From: Artemia franciscana
Taxonomy: Eukaryota > Arthropoda > Branchiopoda > Anostraca > Artemiidae
Reading direction: 5' to 3'
Assembly (NCBI RefSeq): GCF_032884065.1
Contig: NC_088867.1
Location: 58,726,675-58,790,674, forward strand
Length of the DNA: 64,000 nucleotides
Below are positions 3,666 through 63,370 of the stretch, one piece after another. The notes under the pieces were generated by a model that did no database searches, had not been told where the DNA came from, and was given only the letters and a program-made list of their open reading frames with translations. Both the position numbers and the translations under genes were made by a program. The stretch's first letter is position 1. Every line of letters starts with the position of its first letter.

Positions 3666-4031
3666 TCGAACATTCCCTGTGTCCCCGTCGTCATTTATAT
3701 ATCCCCCTGTGCCCCCCGGCGTCCCCGTTGTTGTTGTTTCCCTGTGTCCCGGTCGTCATTTGTGTCCCGGTGTCCCAGTCTGTAATTTCTCTTTGAGTGT
3801 CGCGGTCGTCATTTATATTCCCTGTGTCCCGGTCGTCATTTTTGTCCCGGTCGTCATTTGTGTTCCGGTGTCCGTGTCTGTAATTTCTCTTTGAGTGTCC
3901 TGGTCGTCATTCCCTGTGTCCCGGTTGTCATTTGTGTCCCGGTGCTTTGTTGATGGTGATTGCTAATCGAACATTTCTTGTGTCCCGGTCGCTTTCTCTT
4001 TGAGCGTCCCGGTCGTCATTTATATCCCCTA

Positions 4032-5270
4032 CTAGCTGTTGGGGTGGCGCTTCGCGCCATCCCAACACCTAGTTGGGCGAATATACAACATTCTTTGCTG
4101 TTCCATTGTCTGTCCATATAAATAGATTGTCAGGTTTACCAACTCTTGAACATGCAACATAATAATTGTCCATGGGAAAACAATTCGTATTCAGATCTAT
4201 ACCGCATTTTTCTAACGATTGCCCTTGAGCTTTGTTGATGGTGATTGCTAATCGAACATTCCCTGTGTCCCCGTCGTCATTTATTTATCCCCCTGTGCCC
4301 CCGGCGTCCCCGTTGTAGTTGTGTCCCTGTGTACACAACTATATATGGTCGTCATTTATATTCTCTGTGTTCCGGTCGTCATTTGTGTCCCGGTATCCCA
4401 GTCTGTAATTTCTCTTTGAGTGTCCCGGTCGTTATTTATATTCCCTCTGTCCCGGTCGTCATTTGTGTCCCGGTGTCCCGGTCTTTAATTTCTCTTTGAG
4501 TATCCCGGTCGTCATTTATATTCCCTGTGTCCCGGTCGTCATTTGTGTCCCGGTGTCCCGGTCTGTAGTGTCACCTTATAATGACGTCATATACAAAGCC
4601 TTATATACTTATAATGACGTCAAATGCAAACCCACAAACAAACAAACATGCATATATACAACTTATTTTTATATATACAGATACAGTTTCTGCTTTAGTT
4701 TTTTTTCTTTTTCTTTTTCTTTCTTCTTTTTTTTCTTTTAGTTTTTTCTTTTTTTTAGTTTCTTCTTTTTATTGATTTGTTTTCTTCAATTTGTCAATGT
4801 TCATTCTAACATTGACACTTGGAAAAATCTTTACGTGCCAAGCATGCTAAAGCTCCAATAATTTATATTAAACCTCAAATTTGGGGTATCTGTTTTAAGG
4901 TTTTCGAATTACTTTTCTTGTCAAAAATATATTGAAATATTTGTGCAATTCCCAGTTTTTTTTTTTTAGTTTTTTTCTTTTTTTTAGTTTTTTAGCTTGT
5001 TTTAGTTTTTTTTTCTTTTTAGTTTTTTATCTTTTTTATTTTTTTTAATTTTTAATTTTTTTTTAGTTTTTCCTTTTTAGTTTTTTACCATTTTTCTTTT
5101 TTCGAATTACTTTAATCTGTTGTCAAAATATTTCGAAATATTTATGCAATTTCCAGTTTTTACATTCTAGTTTGTTTTCTTTTATATATATATATAGAAG
5201 ATATAATCTGGCGTAACAGACAAAGTGTAACAGACATAACAGACAGACAACTTATTTTTATATATATAGA
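4032..5270 (-). mobile_element. Helitron H2 nested in H1 (minus strand)
   Basis: A second hairpin-CTAG 3' end lies at 4032-4075 (plus-strand CTAGCTGTTGGGGTGGCGCT), preceded by A. The 5' end is the family terminus TCTATATATATAAAAATAAG on the minus strand, ending at 5270. The flanking sequence on both sides is H1 minisatellite, showing insertion of H2 into H1. The base after the 5' end is C rather than the expected T, so the insertion site is not a perfect A/T. Inside are a helicase C-terminal relic (about 4077-4260), more GTCCCGG repeats, and T-rich low-complexity DNA (4690-5110). Confidence 0.72.
4690..5110. repeat. T-rich low-complexity tract inside Helitron H2
   Basis: Runs of TTTTTTAG/TTTTTC and similar words. 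A very similar (TTTTTTAG)n tract lies at the same relative position in H5 (17586-18008), so it belongs to the Helitron family rather than to the host intron. Confidence 0.8.
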
Positions 5271-5367
5271 CGTCCCGGTGTCCCAGTCGTCATTTGTGTC
5301 CCGATGTCCCGGTCTGTAATTTTTTCAGTCGACAAACATGACGTCACTCGACAGACACACAGACAAC

Positions 5368-8837: not shown

Positions 8838-13454
<4,617 letters not shown>

Positions 13455-14128
13455 TATATATATCCGATGAAGATGCTCAAAGAGTCTATGCCAAAAAACT
13501 TGCTGCTGATAGAGAAAGTCAGAAAAGAAAGCGTGCCGAGGAATCAAAAGAACAGCAAGGAAACAGGCTTGAGGCTAAAGAACGCAAAACCGCGCAGTTA
13601 GATGAAGATCCACATGGACAGTGAGAGTCAAAACATATCAAAACTGAAAATGATAGCGATGATTATTGGGTTTGGGATCTTGACTTGGATAAGGTCATCA
13701 ATGCCTACCAGATTTTAGTTAAAAAAAACAAAGGTTCGGCGATATGTATTTCATAGTGAAGCTGAAATATAAAGAAGAAAAAGAAAACTGAAAAAAGAAA
13801 AAATGTAAAAAACTAAAAAATACTAAAAAGAAAAAAACACTCAAAGAGAAATTACAGACCGGGACACAAATGACGACCGGGACAGAGGGAATATAAATAA
13901 CGACCGGGACACTCAAGGAGAAATTACAGACTGGGATACCGGGACACAAATGACGACCGGGACACAGGCAATATAAATGACGACCAGGACATAGGTATTT
14001 AAGAACATCGTTCAAAGACAAATTTTTAATTGTAAGAAGACCGTTGAAAGAGAAATTTCTAATTGTAAAATGACTGAAGAACCTACAATGGCAACACCCG
14101 AGGAAGCTGCTCAAAACGAATGTATTCA

Positions 14129-14210
14129 CGCCGAAGTAGCTGAGTTGGTAAAGCGTTATGTTTCAGGTTCTAGGTCCGAGAGGCTCCAGGTTTGAACCTT
14201 GGTTTTAGCA
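14129..14210 (+). other. tRNA-like segment inside Helitron H4
   Basis: Contains an A-box-like TAGCTGAGTTGG and a B-box-like GGTTTGAACC. The T-arm CCAGG/TTTGAAC/CTTGG pairs over five base pairs with one G-T. Acceptor ends GCCGAAG and TTTTAGC pair partly. The anticodon arm is poor, so this is probably a degraded tRNA copy or a tRNA-derived SINE head, not a working tRNA. Compare 17998-18080. Confidence 0.5.
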
Positions 14211-14267
14211 TTAATACAAAAGAAGAAAAAAACTAAAAAAGGTAAAAACTACAAAAAAACTAAAAAG

Positions 14268-14308
<41 letters not shown>

Positions 14309-14387
14309 CATCTTTTCCACAAAAATAATAATTTAGTGCTTCTGCTTAAAAACAGCAATCGAATTGATGCCTCCTGATACGCAACTA

Positions 14388-14520
14388 TCAACAAAGTGGC
14401 AATCGTTGTGATCGGTGATCAGTTCTTACCTCGAGATAATATTCTTTATAGGCGAAACAATCAGTTGACAAGAATTGCTTAAACTCATCGATGCTACGAT
14501 GCCCTACAATATCCTGACGA
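14388..14520 (+). pseudogene. Helitron Rep-domain fragment in H4
   Basis: Reads AIVVIGDQFLPRDNILYRRN then QLTRIA, a stop, THRCYDALQYPDEYK. The same block occurs in H5 as VAIVMVGDQFLPRDIIL. This is the region between the N-terminal Helitron-like domain and the HUH Rep nuclease in this family. It is cut off by minisatellite at about 14523. Confidence 0.65.
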
Positions 14521-14689
14521 ATATAAATGACGCCCGGGACACTCAAATAGAAATCACAGACTGGGACACCGGGACACAAATGACGACGGGGACACAGGGA
14601 ATATAAATGACGACCCGGACACAGGGACACAACTACAACGGGGACGCCGGGGGGCACAGGGGGATATATAAATGACGACGGCAACAAAG

Positions 14690-15611: not shown

Positions 15612-16455
15612 TTAACTGCGTAAAACTTGCGAATAAACAACATTCTTCGCTGTCCAATTGTCGCTGCATATAAATACATTGTCAGGTTTACCGACCCTCG
15701 AACATGCAACGTACAATTGTCCATGGGAAAAACAATCAGGATTAAGATCTATACCACATTTTTCTAATGATTGACCTTGAGCTTTGTTAATGGTGATTGC
15801 AAATACTAATCGAATTGGGAATTGCAATCTTTCAAATTGAAAAAGCAGATCCGTTGGAATCATGGGAATGCGAGGAATAAGAACAGCCTCACCCTCATAA
15901 GGCCCTGTCAAGATTGTGGCCTCTATTAGGTTTTCCATTGTTTTTTTTTACGGCAAGTCGCGTGCCATTGCAAAGCTTTGGTGGGTTGATATTTCTTAAA
16001 AGTATTATTGGTACGCCTATTTTTAGTTGTAGCACGTGTGGTGGAAACCCTGAAGGATCTATGGAATTTAAAAATTCAGATGGATAATTAACCGCTTCAT
16101 TTGGTTCCAAAACTGTGTCGACTGACTTGTAAAGGACTGCCTGGTCTCGAATCTTGTTCAAAACAATATTGTTGATTTCGTGGACGTCTATATTTTTGGG
16201 TGCGAGAATCGCTCTTTCACTTAGCCATTTATTATTTTTATAATTTTTTAGAATATTCGGAAATACTTTTTCAATCAATTCATTTTTGGACGTCACTAAA
16301 TTACAGAAATCAGCAGGTAGTTGTATACGTCCTGAAATTGAGTCTACTGTTTGACCAGAGTCATCGTTTTGCAATCGGACACGCATATTTGTAGTTAATT
16401 TTAATATTTTTACGTGTGCCTATAAATTAGAATTTTTTAGGCAAGCATTCATTTC
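15612..16455 (-). pseudogene. Helitron Pif1-like helicase, C-terminal half (first copy)
   Basis: Two overlapping minus-strand frames. The upstream one (16455 down to 15895) reads ADEMNACLKNSNL, a stop, then MRVRLQNDDSG...LPADFCNLV..., NNKWLSERAILAPKNIDVHE, and FPPHVLQLKIGVPIILLRNI then NPPKLCNGTRLAVKK. The downstream one (15938 to 15612) reads NLIEATILTG, FPIRLVFAITINKAQGQSLE and [20 protein letters not shown]. These are helicase motifs IV-VI of the Pif1/RecD-like superfamily 1B helicase that Helitrons use for rolling-circle transposition. The two frames are separated by a +1 slip in an A9 run (plus-strand T9 at 15941-15949). Walker A and B motifs are missing, so the product would be inactive. 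Confidence 0.85.
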
Positions 16456-16654
16456 GTCTGCAGGAGTTAAACTACGTAAAAATTGCGAATATACAACATT
16501 CTTGGCTTTCCCATTGTCTCTGCATATACAAAGCCGTATGTACTAATAATGACATCATATGCAAACGCTCTTTTTACAAACAAACAAACATGCATACATA
16601 CAACTCGTTTTTATATAGATAGATAGATAGATAGATAGATAAAATACAAATTAA

Positions 16655-17095
16655 CTGCGTAAAACTTGCGAATATACAACATTCTTCGCTGTCCAATTGT
16701 CGCTGCATATAAATAGATTGTCAGGTTTACCGACCCTCGAACATGCAACGTACAATTGTCAATGGGAAAAACAATCAGTATTAAGATCTATACCACATTT
16801 TTCTAATGATTGACCTTGAGCTTTGTTAATGGTGATTGCAAATGCTAATCGAATTGGGAATTGCAATCTTTTAAATTGAAAAGGCAGATCCGTTGGAATC
16901 TTGGGAATGCGAGGAATAAGAACAGCCTCACCCTCAAAAGGCCCTGTCAAGATTGTGGCCTCTATTAGGTTTTCCATTGTTTTTTTTTACGGCAGGTCGA
17001 GTGCCATAGCAAAGCTTTGGTGGGTTTATATTTCTTAAAAGTATTATTGGTAGGCCTATTTTTAGTTGTAGCACGTGTGGTGGAAACCCTGAGAA
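16655..17095 (-). pseudogene. Helitron helicase C-terminus, duplicated copy
   Basis: Almost identical to the 15612-16060 segment: same FPPHVLQLKIG, LLRNINPPKLC, LIPRIPKIPTDLPFQF, FAITINKAQGQSLEKCG and an A9 frameshift at the same place (T9 at 16981-16989). Upstream it is fused at about 17095 to the N-terminal Helitron domain, so most of the Rep nuclease and the first half of the helicase have been deleted. Confidence 0.82.
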
Positions 17096-17510
17096 TAATA
17101 TCTCGAGGTAAAAACTGATCACCGACCATAACGATGGCCACTTCGTCGATAGTTGGAGCATTGTATCTACGCACATGTTGGCCAGGAGGCGTTTTGTCAG
17201 CGGAAATAACAATTTTATGCGTATAAGTAGGCATCAAATCGATGGCTGTTTTGAACAAACGCACTAAATTATTATTTTCGTGGAAAAGATGTTGTAATTG
17301 GGAAACGATTGTCCTTTCAATGTTGGGAGAAATTTCGCAACGTGCATTCAATTCAGAATTTCTATCACTGATGAAGTACAATTGTAAAAATTTATGACTC
17401 TCGCCTGAGAATGGTAGAAGGGACCCTGGTCTATGATAAATTTGCCCTTTTACTTTGAAAGTAGACATAAATTGATCTGGATTTTCAATTTGGGCTCCAA
17501 AAGACGTCAT
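17096..17510 (-). pseudogene. Helitron N-terminal domain fragment (pre-Rep region)
   Basis: Reads MTSFGAQIENPDQFMSTFKV at its start (20 residues), then IYHRPGSLLPFSGESHKFLQ, LVRLFKTAIDLMPTYTHKIV and YNAPTIDEVAIVMVGDQFLP. This is the conserved region N-terminal to the HUH Rep domain in animal Helitron polyproteins. The HUH motif itself is not present: the reading frame jumps to the helicase end just after FLPRDIIL. The fusion is a deletion junction, not a functional gene. Confidence 0.8.
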
Positions 17511-17997
17511 TTGGAAACATGAGTTGTATTTTCTGATTCATTTATATTCCTTATGTCCCGGTGTCCCGGTCGTCATTTATATCCCCCTGTTTTATATCCC
17601 GCTTATTTTTCAGTTTTTTCCTTTTTTTAGTTTTTTTTTTACTTTTTTTGTTCTTTTAGTTTTTACGTTTTTTAGTTTTTTTTAGTTTTTTAGATGAATT
17701 TTTTTTTTAGTTTTTTACCTTTTTTTCTTTTTAGTTTTTATTGGTTTTTACCTTTTTTTAGCTTTTTATCTTTTTTATTTTTTTTATTTTTATTTTTAAT
17801 TTTATTAGTATTCTTTTTCTCTTCTATTTTTCATTTTTCCTTTTTTTTAGTTTTTAGTTTTTTAAGTTTTTTCCTTTTTTTAGTTTCTTTAGTTTTTTTA
17901 GTTTTTCGGCTTTTTTATTTTTTATTAGTTTTTAGTTTTTTTGTAGTTTTTGCCTTTTTTTAGTTTTTTCAGTTTTTTTTTTAGTTTTTAGTTTTTT

Positions 17998-35271: not shown

Positions 35272-35639
35272 ATATGAATGAACTGAAATCTAGTCTTAGC
35301 GATATAGATTGGAGTGAAGTTACTAACGAGAATGATTCAAATACATCCTTGGATGTATTTTATCGAATTCTGAACGAAAAACTGAATCTTCATTGCCCAT
35401 TTAGAGCTACATATCGGAAAAGAAACTCACCCAATAAACCTTGGGTAAGTTAATCGCTTTTAAAATCTATCGTGGAAAAAAATCGACTCTATAAGATAAA
35501 AATGAAATACCCCTCAGCTCATAATGTACAGCGATTCCAAAATTATAAAAATTTGCTGGTTAAAATTGTTAGAACAAGTGAACAAATTTATTATGAAAAT
35601 TCATTTAAAAAATCGGATTCACCTCGGACTACATGAAAA

Positions 35640-37735
35640 TTAATCAAGGAAAAAATTGGAATCAATACTAAGACATCACATCCTGAAGTGATCATAAATG
35701 TAAGTGGTGTTGAATTGAAGAGGAAGGATGTTGTTGCAGATTATTTTTGCAATTACTTTTCCCATTTTAGTGCTACTGCTGATCTGGAATCCCCTGAATC
35801 TTTATTTGGTTCATATAAAGATTATCTACCGTCATCCGAAAATTCTAGTATGTTCCTGGCCCCTGTTACTTTCGGTGAATTCCTGAAAGTAATTACGAAT
35901 TTAAAACGTGGTAAGACGTGGGACGTGATTAAGGAAGTTAGTCGACCGTCCATAAAACCAGAAGGTCTGCCTAAGTCTCTCATTGTAGATGATCAACTTG
36001 TAACAGAAAATGGCCAAATTCGACATCATATGAATAATTTTTTTGCGGAGATAGGGAAAAAAACTGCTAATAGCGTTTCTTATTCCTCTGTGTCACAGTC
36101 TTGGAAGCTATTCTTAGGTCCCTCGTGCTTGAAATCAATGGTTCTTGGGGAGGTTACGGTGCAGGAAATTAGAAATATTGTTCTGTCTTTAAAGAATTCT
36201 TCAGCAGGTTTCGACCAAATTTCTGCTAAAGTAATTAAACATATTCTTCCATCGATTATCATCCCAATTTACCACTTGATTAATAGGTCATTTGAACTAG
36301 GAGTATTTCCCCAACTTCTTAAACTTGCTCGTGTTATAGCTCTCTTTAAAGGAGGTGACAGAAAGGACCCTGGGAACTACAGACCGATCTCTCTTCTGTC
36401 AGTGTTCTCTAAGATATTTGAAAGAGCAATGCTCAAACGTCTGGTGAGATTTCTTGAAGCTAAATTTTTTTTTTCCATCAGCATCAGTTTGGGTTTCGCG
36501 CAAAGTATTCTACAGAACATGCTTGTAATAGACTTCTTCAGTTTATACGACGATCTTTAGATTCTAATCTTATTCCTGCAGCCATTTTTCTTGATGTAAA
36601 GAAAGCTTTTGACAGCCTTACACATAAGATTCTCATTGGTAAACTTTGTCATTTTGGTGTCCGTGGGGAAGCATTGTCTTGGTTCTCGTCATATCTAACT
36701 GACAGATCTATCGCCACAGAAGTTACAGACGAAAAAGTTCCAATTGAATACGGAGTACCCCAAGGTTCTATTCTTGGGCCAACCCTCTTCCTCATATATG
36801 TGAACGATCTCTACCGACTTTTTAACACCCCAATTAACAATGTTTGCTGTGGATTGTGTCACAAATCTTACTCTCAGAGTACGTTGGTGTTCACACCTAA
36901 TAGTCAAGAAGAATTAATAGCATTTGCAGATGACACTACTTTAGGTGCTGCAGCTCCGGATGAATCATCCCTTATTCTAAAGCTTCAAGCAATGACTGAG
37001 AAAATACTCTTTTGGTTTGACATAAATCAACTAACTTTAAATGTAAAAAAGTCCTACCTTCTTATTTTTTCTCGTAAAGGTGTGAGCTGCCCCACAATTA
37101 CTGAGCTTCATACACCAAGAGGCTCCATAAGTCGTCCCCCGGATCGATATGTGCGATTCCTGGGAGTTCTTTTGGATGAAAATTTATCATTTAAGTGGCA
37201 TGTTCAAATAATAAGAGTGAAAATTTCCCATGGACTTGGGATCATCCGAAAATTAAAGCGTTTATTCCCTTTCCCTATCCTCCGTCTTTTATACTTTTCT
37301 CTGATTTACCCTTATATATGTTACTGTTCGTCTGTGTGGATGTCCACATTTTCCTCGGTACTTGCTCCTATTCACAATCTTTATGAGAAAGCGACAAGAA
37401 TTCTCCAGTCGGCTACACACACTCCTCTCGACCTCCTAAAAATTAAAGATATTTATGTTTTATCTCTATCTTCGTTGGCATATCAATATTTCCAGGGAGA
37501 TCTCCCACGTTGTTTTTCGGGATTGCTTAAACTAGTAGGGGAAGTAAATTTATATATCGTTCGTAACCGGGAGGATGTGATGATTCCAGCTAGTCCCTCG
37601 GTTCGTTCAGACTTCGGCCTGGCTATGACTGTGGGACGAGCTTGGAACTTGGTTCCCGCTGAGATCCGGCAGTCACGAACACTTGGCTCCTTTAAGAGAC
37701 AGATGAAAAGTTTCTTATTAAAGGCTTCTTATTAA
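35640..37735 (+). pseudogene. Non-LTR element reverse transcriptase, one frameshift and a duplicated N-terminal segment
   Basis: The first frame (to 36560) includes FDQISAKVIKHILPSIIIPI, FPQLLKLARVIALFKGGDRK and DPGNYRPISLLSVFSKIFER. After a shift in a T-run at 36465-36474 the second frame (from 36476) continues HQFGFRAKYSTEHACNRLLQ, IFLDVKKAFDSLTH (palm aspartate), YGVPQGSILGPTLFLIYVND, AFADDTTLG (catalytic FADD), VRFLGVLLDENLSFKWHVQI and a C-terminal GSFKRQMKSFLL. All RT motifs 1-7 plus thumb are recognisable, and the last 420 codons have no stop. The N-terminal part contains two versions of the pre-RT segment in one frame (see findings). Jockey/CR1 group by the 'DP.NYRPISLL..fsKifEr' and 'GVPQGSILGP' motifs. 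Confidence 0.88.
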
Positions 37736-38870: not shown

Positions 38871-41864
38871 CACATATTGACTGCGAGAATATTGCTGATA
38901 TTTAGTTAAGAGACTCTATAAAGTCAGTTTTCACGCTGCAGTTTTCATTGCAAAACCAAGAAAAACTTCAATGTATCATTAAAAACATACAAAATTTCTT
39001 GCTTTATTCAAACATAAGAAATATTTGTATTTACTGAATCAAATCCCTAACAAATCATTATCTCTTAGTCTTTAAATCAACATTTTTACGGAAAAGGAGT
39101 ATTGTAAAACTTAACTAACGGGTTGATAGTTCAACGTAGCAACACTCAAAAATTTGATACAACTTTCAAAACTCACAATTTTTAAACAAATAAAAGAAGA
39201 ATCACAGGAAATCGCAGTTTTCAGATATGAATAGATCCAAAATGGATCAAGGGTGAGATTTTTTAAATTTTAACTTATCATTTACTTTAAGAAAACTATT
39301 TTTCATAACTTTAATTGCGATTTTTCTATACATTGTGTATGTTTATACCCAACACAATAGTAAAATTGTTTTTTACTTCTTCTGAAGATTTGGTATGTCC
39401 ACGCATAATATGTGCACGGATGGACCTAAAAAAAGAGCATCTTTAATTACGAGTTGGCAACTTTGGAAATAGAGACAGAAGAAAAATTTATTCTCTAAAT
39501 GCCAAAAGTATTACAGAAAAAAATATCTGTACTTAAGTAGTCACAATCACAAGCACATAAATATAAGTACAGAAAACTGTTTTTCCAAAAGATATGTATA
39601 TAAATTTACAGAATAAAGAAAAAAATATTTCTCAAAATAAAACACTCAGAAAGTAAATAATACAACAAACCTACTTAACCCTTTGAGATCAAACACTTTG
39701 AACTGAGAACAAACTTGTAAAAAGCCTCTAAATAAAATGGTTGTTATTCTTTGGATGGAGAGTGTCTCTTTAGCACAGCAAGGACGGCGAAGTCACTAGG
39801 GGATTTGCCGAGTTACCGTCGAAATTCGGGTAGAGGCTTTACTAATCCTTGATTAAACACGTAGACAATACACTTGCAAACAAAGTTGAACTGACTCTGA
39901 AAAAATTAATTAATAATAATTTAAAAAGTAATTTAAAAAAAATTAGATAATTAATGAAAATGACTCTGCAAACAAAGCTGACTATGAAATTAAATATCGC
40001 CAGTTATTAGCAAAAACTTTGTAACTGACACCTAAAGTCGAAATTCAGATACAAATGCTATCTAACGTCATATTTTACAACTATTCTAGTGGTATACTTC
40101 GTTTTTGTCGTATGATGCCTCTCAGATGAAGAAGTCAAATTTATTGCTAAACTGTTAAAACAATGTAGGACCACTTCTTACATTGTTTCTAACTGTTTCT
40201 AATTGTTTCTAACAGATTCTAATTGTGATACAATCTCATTTTGAAATCCAAATTTGATGTACGCCAGATGATAAAATTACCATGACGTGGGCAAATATTC
40301 GACTCATCTCTGATTTTTTTTTTTTTTTTTAAGTAGTTACTTTTGTAACTACATTAACTTTGTAACTACCTTTTTTTAACCTTTTTTCTTAACCTTTTGT
40401 TTCTTAACCTTTTTACATCAGTGATTCCAGTGATTTAATGATCAGTGAATCAGTGATTCCAGTCAATGATAAAACAGTTGATAAAAAAGATAACGATTTA
40501 TAATTGTTAGAAAAAATTGTGAGAAACAGCTCAACCACTTTCACAGAAGTGGTTGAGCTTTTTGAGGTCTCAACCAAGTAGCAAAGCTCTACAAACGGGT
40601 CTCAATAGCGGCTTTAAATTGGCGTTGAATTCGTTGTTCTATCTACAATATCTTTGGCTCCACAAAAATCGATTCTTTCTCGATTACATTTTTTTTTAAA
40701 TATGAAAAAGTGCAGATAAGACCTTTTAGCTATCAAGCAGCAATATATATATGTGAGGGAATCTGTAAAATAGGAGATTAAAGGAGTTGAAAATCGGACT
40801 ATTCGATACGTCACATTAGTGAACAAGAAATTATTTTGGATAATTATCAAATGGTTTAATGATTTTATTCGGTCATTTCATATCTATTTATTTTATATAA
40901 ATTGAAAATTAATTACGTTTATAAATTTATTGACGAGACTATATACATATTTAAGAACAGTTAAAGCTGTATAGTAGCCGAAAACTATTGCTCTGCACAA
41001 GATTTTGACCAAGAACGTATGAGTGAGAGAAGTGGCGCGCCAGAGATGTAGAAACGGGTCAAAATAAGTAAGAGTTGAGAAGAAAAAAATGTCTGAGTGC
41101 CAGGTGTTTTGGCAATTTTGTTTATTTCAAACAATTAAAAAAATTTAATTTTGATTAGGGGGTAGCAAGGGATGGCTTAATTATTATTAGTTAAACCATC
41201 AATAGTTGAACAAGCGAAAACGATACTTAATTCAAGTTCTTCAAGGAATTTGTTTGAGGACAATTTTTAGGAATGAGAATTTTCGAGGAGAAAAACACTA
41301 TTCCTTACGAAAGTAGGGATTTGAATCCAATTAGTATGTATGGTATGAAAGAGCTGTTTAGATAGTTAAAAAGAATTCTCAGAATGCAAGGAAATGGTAC
41401 CTGTAAAGCAAGGTTATTTTGTATATTAGATCGGCTAAATACGGTGGAAAAAAAATACCTAAAGAAAACCAACAACATTAGGCCAATATTGAATACAAAA
41501 TGTGACCAATATTTCGGACCAGTAATCATGGTCCAGTTTCAGCGCGCAATTAAAATAAATGAAAAATAAAACTTACTTGTTAACAAAACACTTAGGAATT
41601 ATAAGAAAAACAACTCACAAGACAAAATTGTGAGATGTGACTTGAAGAAACAAAACAGACCTTTTTAGGTTTCATTTATTTCAATTAGGCATGTAAAATC
41701 ACTGCGATTATCAATCCAAAATATTCGCCTCCTTTTTTTTTTGAACGTTTTTTTGTCTTCTTTTGTTTTTGAATGTAAGACGTTCTTAAGGGATATCCAA
41801 CAAAGAGGAGCAGAAAACGTGGCCTTTTGTATTTATTTTTAACGGAATTGCGCTCTTTGATTGG
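38871..41864. other. No recognised gene
   Basis: AT-rich DNA between the convergent dynein and phosphatase genes. Short TTTCTAA repeats at 40183-40220 and CAGTGATTCCAGTGA at 40423-40465. Open frames on both strands are short and lack family signatures. Confidence 0.45.
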
Positions 41865-44908: not shown

Positions 44909-45193
44909 AGGAGTTTGCACCATCATCGCTCTTTGATCCCTCATTATTTTGACAATTTCAATTGGATACACAGGTTCATTGGCTTCAATTAAACAGATTG
45001 CTGTCTCCATCAAGATCAGCACACCAGTCCGACCAATTCCTGCAGAGCAATGGACTACAGTTGGTTCGACCATTCCAGCTCGAGCCGCTCGAACACGATT
45101 AACAAAATCTAAAAACTCTTCATTGGACTCTGGGACACCATGATCAGGCCATGCGAGGTACTGCATTTGGGTCACGTGACGCTCTGCCCCGTT
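44909..45193 (-). CDS. Ptpmeg-like: Protein tyrosine phosphatase, PTPN3/PTPN4 (Ptpmeg) type: catalytic exon
   Basis: A 285-nt phase 0-0 exon on the minus strand, acceptor GTGTCATATAG, donor CCT/GTGAGT. It reads [20 protein letters not shown], then [20 protein letters not shown] and [26 protein letters not shown] carries the general-acid aspartate. [10 protein letters not shown] is the complete P-loop with nucleophile cysteine and arginine. QRAMMVQT is the Q-loop with the water-positioning glutamine. The family hydrolyses phosphotyrosine on proteins; the FERM-PDZ members PTPN3/PTPN4 act at the membrane cortex. Assignment to that subfamily rests on [36 protein letters not shown] and the neighbouring exons; FERM and PDZ exons lie outside what was recognised. 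All catalytic residues are present. Confidence 0.93.
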
Positions 45194-46665
45194 CTATATG
45201 ACACAAAGATAAGGTAATCATTTATTACCCACTTCAAATAAAGATAAAAGAAACAGTGAAATCTGCTAAAGAAAAAGACACAATACACTAAATTAAGTTA
45301 TAACAATAGCTAGCAATTAAAAACTACAAAAAACGAAAAATATAATAAAGAGAAAAAAAATAAACAAAAAACAAGGACAGGACAAAAAGAGGTGAAAAGA
45401 CAATTGGTCATTTGTTTAAGTTTTTAGTCTTTATTTAAATAATTGGTCTTAGCTAAGTTATATAAATAATCTTCTCAAGATATTAAGGGTAGCCAATAGC
45501 GCATTAATTAATAGGGATTCAGGAAACACAAAGCACAGATAAATACAGAAACAAAGAGGTGAAGAATCAGGTACCATGAAACCTTTTTCAACCTGTCAAG
45601 TCTCCACTTCTAGAATATTTCATATGAATCTACCAAATAGAATCCAGTTATTGATGGAAAAATCGTTCTTTAGTTCTAGAATAATCAATAGCTTTAGATT
45701 ATTTCAAGAGTTAAGGCGTTCAGTTCTAGATGAATCTACTCTCAGTAAGTTTAAGTAAAGGCTGGGCTCCTCAGAGTAGTATCTAAGGGCCAATACTTTT
45801 CCTGGTGTAAATCAAAAACATAGGGGGCAATTTCATTAACCCTATATGTCATTTTGCTGCCAATATCATGGTCCGTGCAGTTCTCCATAAACATGATCAA
45901 ACTTTAAAGGCTTCCCTATTTATTCTATCGAATCACCTTGAGATGGAAGTGATCTGATACCTATATGCTCATCTTCAATACATTCAAGAGTAATGATCTA
46001 GCAATTATCCAATCGAAGGCCTCACGTAAACATTCAGACTTTATCTTCAAGGGATAAGCTAACCCTTGATTCAGCTAACAGCCATCCCTATCCTAGTTGA
46101 CAAACTTTGTTCGATTTGACTTTATGGAGTACCAAATCTTGGCTTTTTAGAAATTAAAAGTAAATGAGAAGAAGAAAGAAAAAAAAACATTTTTCTAATT
46201 TAAATTATTAGAAGTGAAACTGAGAGGTTAGAAAAGCAAATAATTTTTCTTTTTTTTTATTGGGTTAACAACAAAGAGGGTAAAAATAATTAAAAAAGAC
46301 AAAAAAATAGACAGAGAAAAGAGAATAAAAAGAAGAGTATCTGCTTAATTCTTTGTTTATTTTTTAGACTCTCTAAACCTAAAAATCTCTTTAATTTCTT
46401 TATAAAAAAGAGAATAATCACAATTAAGAAAGAAAAAAAGAAATTAAAAGGCCTTAGAAAAAAAAGAAATGAAAAATTATTTCCTTTCAATAGAAAATGA
46501 CTAACTTATAGTACTTTTGTATCTTTAAACGTATTTTTCCCACCAGTCTTAGAAAGTAGATGATTATGAAATTCTTCGGTCATCAAATCAAAAAAAATTG
46601 AATATCGAAAAAATATTTATTTCAAAATGTATATATTGAACAGCAAAGGTTTCAGCTATGGCTTT
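45194..46665. other. Phosphatase intron, no recognised gene
   Basis: AT-rich, with A-rich/T-rich tracts at 46170-46490. No transposon recognised. Confidence 0.5.
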
Positions 46666-46669
46666 ATTT

Positions 46670-47513
46670 CCAATTAATACTTTGTTTAAACAGAAACAAA
46701 ATATCTACTTAAATCTTTGTTCGTAATTTTAAATTCTCTAAACACAAAACTTTCTTCAAATTACTTCAGCTAAACAGTAAGTCTAATTAATACTTCGTTT
46801 AAACAAAAAAAAAATATCTACTTAAATCTTTGTTTGTAATTTTAAATTCTCTAAACACAAAACTCTCTTCAATTACTTCAGCTAAACATCAGATCTTGAA
46901 TCAATACTTTGTTTAAAAAAAAAAAAAAATCTACTTACATCTTTGTTCGTAATTTTAAATTCTCTAAACACAAAACTCTCTTCAAATTACTTCAGCTAAA
47001 CAGCAAGTCTCTAATTACTCTAATTAATACTTCGTTTAAACAAAAAAAAATATCTACTTAAATCTTTGTTTGTAATTTTAAATTCTCTAAACACAAAACT
47101 CTCTTCAATTACTTCAGCTAAACATCAGATCTTGAATCAATACTTTGTTTAAAAAAAAAAAAAAATCTACTTACATCTTTGTTCGTAATTTTAAATTCTC
47201 TAAACGCAAAACTCTCTTCAATTACTTCAGCTAAACAGCAGATCTTGAATCAATACTTTATTTAAACGAAAACGAAAATCTACTTACATCTTTGTTCGTA
47301 ATTTTAAATGCTCTAAACGCAAAACTCTCTTCAATTACTTCAGCTAAACATCAGATCTTGAATCAATACTTTATTTAAACGAAAACGAAAATCTACTTAC
47401 ATCTTTGTTCGTAATTTTAAATTCTCTAAACGCAAAACTCTCTTCAATTACTTCAGCTAAATATCAGATCTTGAATCAATACTTTATTTAAACGAAAACG
47501 AAAATCTACTTAC
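46670..47513 (-). repeat. 113-bp tandem array copied from the phosphatase exon/intron boundary (7 intronic copies)
   Basis: The plus-strand anchor TCTACTTA(C/A)ATCTTTGTTCG recurs near 46703, 46817, 46930, 47053, 47166, 47279, 47391 and 47504; the last is the real exon end. Spacing is 112-114 bp except one of 123. Each unit holds ~74 nt of the exon's 3' end, the 5' splice site region and ~39 nt of intron. The four copies at 46930, 47166, 47279 and 47391 keep GAT/GTAAGT on the minus strand. Those at 46703, 46817 and 47053 read GATTTAAGT and have lost the GT. Copies 2+3 and 4+5 are near-identical pairs, a higher-order duplication. Copies nearest the exon match it best. Confidence 0.93.
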
Positions 47514-47740
47514 ATCTTTGTTCGTAATTTTAAATTCTCTAAACGCAAAACTCTCTTCAATTACTTCAGCTAAACAGCAGATCTCGAACTGTCCTATCTC
47601 TATGCTTGAATCCACATCTGGCCAATACTTGTGGCACTTTATTCTCCCTCTTTCAAGCAGTGTTGTGAGCATCACAATTAATGTTGATTGAGCCTCCCAG
47701 ATCATGTACCAAAAATCTGTTTGAGTTGTAGGCAATGGTC
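47514..47740 (-). CDS. Ptpmeg-like: Protein tyrosine phosphatase, PTPN3/PTPN4 (Ptpmeg) type: middle catalytic-domain exon
   Basis: A 227-nt minus-strand exon, acceptor CGTTCCTGTTTAG, donor GAT/GTAAGT. It starts in phase 1 (the split glycine of QGPLP) and ends in phase 0. It reads PLPTTQTDFWYMIWEAQSTL, IVMLTTLLERGRIKCHKYWP and FAFREFKITNKD. QGPLP..t..dFW.miWe....iVmLT...E.gr.KC.qYWP is the classic PTP motif series (KC..YWP before the WPD loop). Identity to the PTPN3/4 subfamily is inferred from LTTLLERGR(I)KCHKYWP. The last ~74 nt of this exon are also found seven times in the following intron. Confidence 0.93.
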
Positions 47741-56059: not shown

Positions 56060-56176
56060 CTTGAGTTGCAACATAGCGGTTGACAATTCCCGACTTGGGT
56101 ATTTCCATTTGAACAAAATCAGCGTTTATGTAATCACCAGTTGAAGAAGACTGAAGAACAAACCTCGTTGAATCGT
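56060..56176 (-). CDS. Ptpmeg-like: Protein tyrosine phosphatase, PTPN3/PTPN4 (Ptpmeg) type: first recognised catalytic-domain exon
   Basis: A 117-nt minus-strand exon, acceptor CGTTTCTTATAG, donor CAAG/GTAAAT, entering in phase 1 and leaving in phase 1. It reads DSTRFVLQSSSTGDYINADF then VQMEIPKSGIVNRYVATQ(G). DYINA is the phosphotyrosine-recognition neighbourhood present in all classical PTPs, and MEIP.s.I.N.YIa.QGPLP is characteristic of PTPN3/PTPN4. The split glycine codon is completed by the exon starting at 47740, across an ~8.3-kb intron containing retroelement debris. Upstream exons (FERM, PDZ and the KNRY part of the PTP domain) were not found to the right. Confidence 0.93.
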
Positions 56177-60890: not shown

Positions 60891-61948
60891 TTTTTACACA
60901 CTTATCAAGTTAAATTCTAAACAAAACTTCTATTTTTCTAGTTTCAATTAAAAAATTAAAATTATTGCCCAGACACCATAAGTAATTTTTTGTATACTAA
61001 CTTTAGCAATTATGAACTGAAAACTAAAATGAAAAAAAAAATTCCTATGGAAACGTAAGACAATGGTTATACAGATAAGTACTTTAAGAGTTAAACCAAA
61101 AAAAGTTTGGTTCCAGGAGACAATTATAATTTTGAACTGAAAAATGAGACCAGATTATTTTATTTGAAATTTTCAGGAGTTACTCTAGTTTCAATTCACA
61201 AATCAGATTTTTCATTAAAACCCTAAAATACTGCGTTTTACATTACTATTCCATGTTTTTTAGAATGTTAAAAAATACTATTTTTACTTTCACACGCAGT
61301 AAGATGTTAATAACATTTTCTACTGCAGTGCTATAGAAAAACACAGTTTTTCGTAAAACTTTATTCTATTTTAAAAACTTTTTTTTAGTTACTTAGGCAC
61401 GATTAATTAGCTAAACTGATCATTGATACCTGGCCTTTTACCAAGAAGATTCGCTTTGATAATTAGTTATTTTGGAGATTTGAATCAAATGAGAAGGCCA
61501 AATTAATTACAATTCTTAGAAAACAACTGGTCAAATAAGCTTGCCCATTATTTTCGGCTGTCAAATAAAAAAAAAAAAACTTGGAATCCACGAGATAAGG
61601 AAGAGGTTAAATATGTTTATTGTAGCAAAGTGCTTCTGATAGATATATTTCACGTGGAATTTCAACTCAGGGATATTTAAGCTTCAAGATATATCCACAT
61701 TAATATAAGAAAAAAGTTTCGATTATTCCCACTGTACGTTTCAAACACGCATAAGCTTAATATCTTTTAAAAAGCAAATGCAAAAGTATTTTGAACTCAC
61801 ATATTTCAAGAAACTCAAAGAAATAGAATTGCCTTAAAATCAAAATCTGATTTAAAACACAATTTTAACATCAGTAACATATTTGTTGACAACTGATCAC
61901 AGAAATACCAAAGATCATGTACTGTCAAATAAGAATAAAGACAACTTT
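60891..61948. other. Region upstream of the transporter
   Basis: AT-rich, no repeats or exons recognised. The open frame extends upstream of the first ATG to 61883 without an ATG, so either translation starts at 61949 or the frame before it is simply untranslated leader. No TATA/Inr arrangement can be assigned with confidence. Confidence 0.4.
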
Positions 61949-63370
61949 ATGACAAGTACATTATTCTTAATTGTTTTAAGTACAGCCATTGGCTCTGGTT
62001 TTCAGTTTGGCTATAATGTAGGCATAATCAACCCGGCAGCAGAAATAATCAAAGAGTGGATAAGTGACATAGAAACTGAGCGATATAACACAAAACCATC
62101 AACAGATCGGATCGAATTTTTGTGGTCAATAATAGTGGTTCTGCATGTTGTGGGAAGTTTATTTGGAGGTTTGCTAAATCAATCTTTTGCTAGAATAGGA
62201 AGGAAACTTGGCCTGCTGTACAATAATCTATTTGCCCTTTTTGGGATCTTTTTTGAAATGGTAGGTTACTATGTTAATTCATATGAATGCATAATGGTTG
62301 GAAGATTCTTGCTTGGCGTAAATGCTGGAATTGGGATGGGACTCAGTGTCATTTACCTCCAAGAAACTGCACCAAGAAAAAAACGAGGTTTATTTTCAGC
62401 CATAGTAAGAGTAATGTTTGTCTTTTCACAGCTATTTGGAGGAATACTTGGAATGGAGACTATCCTGGGTGTAAAACTCCTTTGGCCTTATTTGTTCTTG
62501 ACTGCCATCGCCTTTATTCTGATACAAGTTCCAGCTTTAATTTTCTCTGAAGAAACTCCAAAGTATCTACTGATAACCAAAAATGATGAAAGAAAGGCAA
62601 GAAAATCACTCGAATGGCTTAGAAGAACTAAGGATATCGAGGATGAATTTCAGGAGCTAAAAAAAGAGCAAAATGACAGTCAAAATGCATCTGCCGTTAC
62701 ACTGACCAATTTGTTTACTGATCCTGTTCTTAAACAACAGACAATGATCGGGGTTCTGCTGACGATATCCCAGCAATTTTCAGGCATTGCTTCTTTCATG
62801 CACTACTCAACATTTATTATTCAGGAAGCTGGCTTTGGGCAATTTGAGTCACAAATCACTACAATAACCTTGTTGGTTATCAACTTAGCTGTAACAATAA
62901 TCTCAGTCTTCCTAATTGATAAAGTCGGCAGAAAGAAACTTCTTCTTTCTGGCATCATCATAATGGCCACAACCACTGCCATGGTAGCACTCTCCTTTTC
63001 CCTGCAGCCTATTTACGAGTGGACAAAGTATTTAGGGATTGTGTCTATTGGAATATTTATAATCGGATTTGCACTAGGCCCTGGTGCTATACCCCTGATA
63101 ATCATTAGCGAAATGGCCCCACAAGAGTATCGATCGCATGCAGTAGGGATAGGCATGGTAACTACATCACTATCAAGAGTAGTGGTTAGCTTGTCTTTTA
63201 TGAAACTGAAAAGCCTACTCGGGCCTTTTGTATTCTTATTGTATACGGCCTCTTTAACAGTGTCAGGAATATTGGCCTCTATTTATGTTCCAGAAACGAA
63301 AGGTAAAAGAGTTGATGAAATTCAGGAAATCTTTAGACAGCGTGCCCACATCCCCCCATCACAAATTTAG
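61949..63370 (+). CDS. GLUT/SLC2-type sugar transporter, intronless, 473 aa
   Basis: Facilitated sugar-transporter fold (major facilitator superfamily) with about 12 hydrophobic segments, acting in a membrane. The start is the first in-frame ATG, giving MTSTLFLIVLSTAIGSGFQF, close to the usual GLUT N-terminus. Family motifs: GYNVGIIN (21-28), ARIGRK (81-86), YLQETAPRKKRG (136-147), EETPKYLL (201-208), QQFSGI (275-280), DKVGRKK (324-330), GPGAIP (377-382), PETKGK (448-453). Length matches GLUT1-4 (~490). It is uninterrupted, and AATAAA follows at 63448. Compared with human GLUT1, several glucose-contact positions differ (see findings): QQ, N312 and E388 equivalents are kept, but the N288, W388, Q161 and N411 equivalents are changed. 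Substrate therefore uncertain. Neighbouring phosphatase exons are on the opposite strand. Confidence 0.94.
   Translation: MTSTLFLIVLSTAIGSGFQFGYNVGIINPAAEIIKEWISDIETERYNTKPSTDRIEFLWSIIVVLHVVGSLFGGLLNQSFARIGRKLGLLYNNLFALFGIFFEMVGYYVNSYECIMVGRFLLGVNAGIGMGLSVIYLQETAPRKKRGLFSAIVRVMFVFSQLFGGILGMETILGVKLLWPYLFLTAIAFILIQVPALIFSEETPKYLLITKNDERKARKSLEWLRRTKDIEDEFQELKKEQNDSQNASAVTLTNLFTDPVLKQQTMIGVLLTISQQFSGIASFMHYSTFIIQEAGFGQFESQITTITLLVINLAVTIISVFLIDKVGRKKLLLSGIIIMATTTAMVALSFSLQPIYEWTKYLGIVSIGIFIIGFALGPGAIPLIIISEMAPQEYRSHAVGIGMVTTSLSRVVVSLSFMKLKSLLGPFVFLLYTASLTVSGILASIYVPETKGKRVDEIQEIFRQRAHIPPSQI

Follow-up and report, generated by a model that had tools for sequence, protein, structure and literature searches.

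An intron of a tyrosine phosphatase gene of Artemia franciscana carries a tandem array in which the end of the preceding exon has been copied together with its splice donor. This array is a donor-capturing minisatellite: the repeat extends over an exon-intron border, the donor lies within the repeated unit, and several of the copied donors are equal to the real one. We regard the array, at a probability of about 0.72, as a mutational by-product, in which nearly all productive mRNA would come from the real donor at position 47513 and the decoy donors would contribute at most a small, decaying share. Positions refer to the window, i.e., the whole 64-kb stretch of DNA (64,000 nt) that was analysed.

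The host gene and the age of its intron

One phosphatase domain can be read on the minus strand over five exons, Z, A, B, C and D, with consistent phases (1, 1, 0, 0) and GT-AG introns. Exon Z lies outside the window, with its last base at window coordinate 80313. Exon A (56060..56176; DSTRFVLQ...NRYVATQG) is the upstream neighbour of exon B (47514..47740; 227 nt; PLPTTQTDFW...FREFKITNKD; matching PF00102 and PTPN4), of which the last 71 nt form the exonic part of the first repeat copy. The real donor of exon B, GTAAGT at 47508..47513 (GAT/GTAAGT, phase 0), opens an intron of 2320 nt (45194..47513), near the 5' end of which the seven other copies are situated. Exon C (44909..45193), which includes the WPD loop and the catalytic Cys, ends in MVQTP and has the donor GTGAGT, and exon D (39813..39896), the last coding exon, holds SQFNFVCKCIVYVFNQGLVKPLPEFRR followed by the stop. 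Exon B joined to exon C gives an uninterrupted domain. The first-pass annotation, which was made from the letters of the window, had placed the array in a tyrosine phosphatase gene and the next acceptor at 45193; both are borne out, and the junction of exons B and C is phase 0.

The joined domain matches PF00102 with 1.9e-67 (209 aa). Using a query of 286 aa, the best PDB match is PTPN4 (2i75; 375.8 bits, residues 5-282 of 286), with PTPN3 at up to 355.6 bits and the best two-domain receptor phosphatase at 365.0 over its whole chain; for this query the PTP domain is closest to PTPN3/4. For the 209-aa query, five two-domain receptor chains (up to 316, likewise whole-chain) ranked above PTPN4 (280), the single domains of the top receptor chain reaching, as printed, 157 each. 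Judged by sequence similarity, the host gene is a PTPN3/4-like tyrosine phosphatase. PTPN3 and PTPN4 are FERM-PDZ-PTP proteins, and a candidate FERM_M piece (C5:58912680-58912955, minus strand; 37.4 bits, three stops within the match) is found on the same strand as the PTP exons, beyond the window end by about 122 kb in the upstream direction. This piece, one of 18 genome matches, has the placement expected of a PTPN3/4 gene and may belong to the phosphatase gene.

The 24-kb intron between exons Z and A harbours, on the opposite strand, a sugar transporter ORF in a single exon (61856-63370, plus strand; PF00083, 6.8e-89), whose closest named relative, from Tribolium, shares 36 % identity. Since this ORF has no introns, it could be a retrocopy.

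The position of the intron between exons B and C was compared in four related ORFs (P0180-P0183). P0181 and P0182, which are nearly alike, and P0183 depart from the conserved sequence at the end of exon B, within one residue, and go on with VK or VR, as a read-through of GTR would. P0180 shows no break at this point and runs on into the sequence of the next exon. The common point of departure in P0181-P0183 suggests, as far as protein letters can tell, that the intron probably occupied this position before the array arose.

Structure and history of the array

Tandem Repeats Finder reports an array at 46672-47588 (period 113 bp, 8.0 copies, score 1400). On the minus strand, with the copies numbered as they are transcribed, the real exon end counts as copy 1 and seven intronic copies follow it, the number given in the first-pass annotation. 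The unit consists of 71 exonic and 42 intronic nt; an earlier division into about 74 and about 39 nt was right in that the unit combines the exon end with its donor and the intron start, and only the lengths have to be corrected. Likewise, TTTAG had been taken for extra sequence ahead of the exon-like part of each copy. It belongs to the copied exon, as the real exon has TTTAG at 47570-47574.

Copy 1 (47472..47584; 113 nt) comprises the real exon end, with the first base of its donor at 47513, and the first 42 nt of the intron. Copies 2 (47359..47471), 3 (47246..47358) and 4 (47133..47245) are also 113 nt long, with live donors at 47400, 47287 and 47174 and with 56-nt pseudo-exons at 47401-47456, 47288-47343 and 47175-47230, respectively; one change in copy 3 turns E into A when read in the exon frame. 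Copy 5 (47011..47132; 122 nt) has its donor GT changed to TT at 47061. Copy 6 (46897..47010; 114 nt) possesses a live donor at 46938 and a pseudo-exon of 57 nt (46939-46995), and its donor, like that of copy 4, is soon followed by a tract of 15 T. Copy 7 (46785..46896; 112 nt; donor TT at 46825) equals copy 5 except for indels, and copy 8 (46672..46784; donor TT at 46712), with an exon-like part of 57 nt, borders the unique intron sequence. Copies 6 and 8 have 1-nt insertions; the length of 56 nt originally given for all pseudo-exons applies to copies 2, 3, 4, 5 and 7, but not to these two, in which it is 57 nt.

The exon-intron junction reads GAT/GTAAGT in copies 1, 2, 3, 4 and 6 and GAT/TTAAGT in copies 5, 7 and 8. 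A live donor, GATGTAAGT, is present in four of the seven intronic copies and the remaining three have in common a G-to-T change in the donor GT, exactly as first described, and the five donor positions listed at that time are correct within one base. In the whole window GATGTAAGT occurs five times on the minus strand, i.e., at the five live sites, and not at all on the plus strand.

Comparison of the copies provides insight into how the array grew. Copies 5 and 7 are identical, indels aside, in their exonic (0/71 differences) and intronic (0/40) parts. Copies 4 and 6 have identical intronic halves (0/42), while their exonic halves differ at 3/71 positions and in one gap column, and the exonic half of copy 6 is nearest to that of copy 8 (2/72). 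Copy 6 looks like a chimera of a copy 8-like exonic half and a copy 4-like intronic half. A paired order of the copies had been proposed (2+3 = 4+5, which corresponds to copies 7+6 = 5+4 in our numbering); it holds for the pair 5/7 and, in the pair 4/6, for the intronic halves, but not for the exonic half of copy 6. Copies 1, 2 and 3 share identical intronic halves (0/42), with exonic halves 2/71 apart in each pair, and the exonic half of copy 4 equals that of copy 1 (0/71).

This pattern fits the expansion by unequal exchange that the first-pass annotation had suggested. Repeated unequal exchange would explain it, with the newest copies adjoining the exon. The dead donors of copies 5, 7 and 8 carry the identical change and are therefore most simply seen as one loss that was copied, not as three. 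The sequence around copy 8 points to a first duplication in which intron ...GTATTAATT came to adjoin exon AGATCTG..., the two having at most 2-3 nt in common. We envisage an initial tandem duplication that extended from within exon B to a point about 42 nt into the intron, by which the exon end and the donor would have been copied; unequal exchange would subsequently have expanded the array to its eight units, three of which would have received the same donor loss.

Raw divergence over all 28 pairs of copies is lower in the exonic part (96/1989, 4.8 %) than in the intronic part (161/1168, 13.8 %), which alone would favour constraint on the exonic sequence and counts against a by-product. The T-tract and the junction account for much of the intronic variation. 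With T-tract and junctions left out, 4/61 exonic and 4/29 intronic columns are variable (Fisher p = 0.27, not significant), and with the junction-side exonic columns retained the figures are 9/71 and 4/29 (p = 1.0); the columns of this test were chosen by hand, and they represent few independent events and give little power. The copies thus display no significant sign of constraint in what is a weak test.

Donor choice and the fate of transcripts

The 11-mer GAUGUAAGUAG is identical at all five live donors. Energies of the duplex with U1 are -7.0 kcal/mol at each of these donors and -4.2 kcal/mol at the three TT copies, and among 134 GT sites in exon B and the intron just one (46543, -7.3) outscores the live donors. 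Mean predicted unpairedness ranges from 0.37 to 0.50 over the eight donor sites, and with so little contrast in the fold prediction an RNA structure that hides particular donors was rejected. The real donor is predicted to be slightly less open (0.38) than the live decoys (0.43-0.48), which is a point against the array being a by-product.

The T15 tracts lie at 47151-47165 (copy 4) and 46915-46929 (copy 6) on the minus strand, after GTAAGTAGA, where the real donor has TTTTCGTTTTCGTTT. U-rich stretches shortly past a donor can strengthen its use, and among the decoys those of copies 4 and 6 may therefore be the strongest. Duplicated 5' splice sites compete by proximity and exon context, and in some settings of the classical work intron-proximal copies can win. 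The latter outcome would make decoy use frequent and likewise counts against a by-product. We expect most transcripts to use 47513, because it is the proximal donor, at which exon B is complete, and the remainder of the exon has no second copy. In such transcripts 47513 would be joined to 45193, and the seven copies would be lost along with the intron. In a minority, splicing may instead start from one of the four decoys that are identical to the real donor or, more rarely, take in a pseudo-exon.

Use of a decoy donor lengthens exon B by 113, 226, 339 or 575 nt, and all four extended products stop after nine codons (NKD-VSRFSFSFK-stop). Pseudo-exons, which were run singly from TTTAG to the live donor, all start with CTG AAG TAA and consequently have a stop as their third codon, and all four products with a single live pseudo-exon end in NKD-LK-stop. 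With several pseudo-exons, the first one included would end translation. Each of the eight mis-spliced products tested ends ahead of the WPD loop, and inactivation before this loop, as anticipated in the first-pass annotation, is possible in principle. The frame shift to which inactivation had been attributed does not hold as its mechanism: every pseudo-exon has the in-frame stop at codon 3, and the 57-nt pseudo-exon of the live copy 6, being a multiple of three, keeps the frame and still leads to an immediate stop. As the stops lie upstream of the C/D junction, nonsense-mediated decay of these products is expected if the species has junction-dependent decay.

The four real acceptors have a pyrimidine share of 0.71-0.82 over the 17 nt preceding the final TAG/CAG, followed by A or G. 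In the eight TTTAG pseudo-acceptors this share is 0.53-0.59, with an AG within 15 nt upstream and a C at +1. The real acceptor of exon B also ends in TGTTTAG, which indicates that the motif as such works in this gene. Inclusion of pseudo-exons seems less likely than use of decoy donors.

The copies could alternatively act as a working brake, in which decoys and poison pseudo-exons send transcripts to decay in a regulated proportion and so set the phosphatase dose, with copy number as the dial. This is unlikely: the four decoys match the real donor in sequence and U1 pairing, all eight tested products meet an early stop and the T15 tracts of copies 4 and 6 are placed shortly past the donors, where U-rich enhancers lie, but the pseudo-acceptors are poorer than the four real ones, three of the seven intronic donors are dead and significant constraint on the copies is lacking. 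The regulatory role that the first-pass annotation thought possible is further weakened by the amino-acid change of copy 3, the 1-nt insertions of copies 6 and 8 and the donor loss in copies 5, 7 and 8, as well as by an exonic divergence that does not differ significantly from the intronic one after the exclusions above and by the commonness of arrays in this genome; the evidence supports the reading of the first-pass annotation that a tyrosine phosphatase gene contains a splice-donor minisatellite. We are slightly more doubtful still of a heritable, copy-number-tunable element of poison splicing, in which the share of productive mRNA would depend on how many live and dead donors there are and in what order, and single exchanges would switch between functional, reduced and null alleles.

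We also have to consider that the array or its copy number is an artefact of assembly. Near-identical 113-bp units are hard for short reads and no second haplotype was found in the assembly search, but the variation among the copies is ordered (32/124 alignment columns, including indels and the flank of copy 8) and the contig of 60.9 Mb points to long-range assembly, which makes an artefact very improbable. In the 1.27-Gb assembly the whole array had at least one match, the one found being itself, and a single unit had at least eight, those found all lying within the array, so that no second allele or paralogous array was found there.

There is marginally less to be said for decoy donors that serve as U1 sites and shield the transcript from premature polyadenylation. 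AATAAA starts 25 nt past the first base of donors 1, 2 and 3 (47488, 47375 and 47262), and the intron contains 10 AATAAA compared to about 5 expected from the strand density. However, the hexamer is common on the minus strand (135 in 64 kb) and is replaced by AACAAA or AACGAA in copies 4-8, so that the relation between donor and AATAAA is not kept. Alternative coding exons yielding phosphatase variants, to which the 71 coding nt in each copy might point, are next to impossible, as 8/8 copies entered at TTTAG in phase 0 have a stop at the third codon and any extension stops after nine codons; for the TTTAG acceptor they are ruled out by frame.

The array would in our interpretation be a neutral or slightly costly by-product whose main consequence is mutational. 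Exchange of copy 1 with copy 5, 7 or 8 upstream of the donor would place a TT donor on exon B. Exchange with copy 3 could import one amino-acid change and exchange with copy 6 or 8 a 1-nt insertion, whereas exchange with copy 2 or 4 would leave exon B unchanged from TTTAG onward.

Known relatives and genomic background

With ABCA7 and IFI6 as precedents, a donor minisatellite is of a kind already known. Distinct in the phosphatase array are the long coding part per unit and the mix of live and dead donors. The minisatellite of human IFI6 (6-16), which Turri et al. reportedly recognised as a source of splice donors in 1995, has a 12-bp unit and makes small, in-frame additions, whereas the tested alternative products of the phosphatase array are truncated. 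As in the latter, downstream units of the IFI6 minisatellite carry donors, and they are described as alternative splice donors giving three mRNA species (PMC4526556).

Another precedent is the VNTR in intron 18 of human ABCA7, with 25-bp units that each repeat the exon-18 donor (De Roeck et al. 2018, PMC5954066). Like the phosphatase array, this repeat at the intron start includes and repeats the real donor. De Roeck et al. report that the decoy one unit on is used, adding one unit and giving an out-of-frame, decay-prone product, and that cycloheximide increases early-stop transcripts (PMC5954066). The isoform retaining one unit amounts there to about 2 +/- 1 % and is unchanged by VNTR length, which argues against a brake in the phosphatase gene; the length-dependent effect described is skipping of the next exon, not use of decoy donors (PMC5954066). 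In contrast to the phosphatase array, with 113 bp including 71 coding nt and eight copies, the ABCA7 unit is given as beginning at the donor GT without exon, with about 12 to 427 units. Their number is polymorphic in people (PMC5954066).

Partial duplication of exons that puts splice motifs in tandem is likewise known from Drosophila, where intron gain via tandem duplication of an exonic proto-splice site has been described (PMC2891723; also PMC4974935). The phosphatase array differs in that its intron seems older than the array and the acceptor is outside the copies. An intron born from the array was rejected as a candidate, as the acceptor of exon C lies outside the array and the intron position is apparently shared (with P0181-P0183, not with P0180). 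Neither this array nor a donor minisatellite with so much exon in its unit turned up in a literature search, which is no proof of absence from print. We consider it unusual that each unit has a 71-nt coding part and that broken donors are one unequal exchange from the real exon; owing to the long coding part, each unit is a potential poison exon.

Arrays are abundant in this genome. A survey of 20 stretches of 10 kb spread over the same contig (period of at least 60, at least 1.8 copies) found 28 arrays in 199.9 kb without N, i.e., 140 per Mb with 9.8 % of the sequence covered. The 64-kb window holds 9 arrays (141 per Mb), and 60 kb of its flanks hold 7, with 32 % covered. Such an array-rich genome counts in favour of a by-product, as a genome that forms arrays so often should occasionally capture the end of an exon. 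With an assumed 150,000 introns, a target of 71 nt and no selection, 140 arrays per Mb would lead one to guess, very roughly, at some 1,500 arrays across donors in the genome.

The window itself is bordered by large arrays, which comprise about 13 kb of 74-bp units on one side (L006:1500-6396 and L007:1-8568) and about 4 kb of units of about 102 bp on the other (L003:7629-10000 and L004:80-1971). Scattered minisatellites of a TGTCCCGGTCGTCATTTAT-like motif occur in both orientations at 3737-5322, 12402-12773 and 13868-14645. Reverse-transcriptase ORFs at 35637-37735 (plus strand), the second with RVT_1, have relatives of up to 94 % identity among the best 120 of 3483. A piece of a Pif1-type helicase (15895-17537, minus strand; Pif1_2B_dom), next to an ORF without Pfam match, is possibly a Helitron remnant.

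The phosphatase intron amounts to a natural experiment on splice choice, in which a single acceptor is open to five donors that agree over at least 11 nt and lie in similar contexts of 112-122 nt. With competing donors identical and their contexts similar, position should weigh heavily. The array also illustrates how a repeat-rich genome can endanger an exon, as the functional donor belongs to an array whose units apparently exchange and of which three already have a dead donor. Should captures of this kind be as common as the density of arrays suggests, such genomes would repeatedly acquire splice-null alleles from arrays that contain donors.
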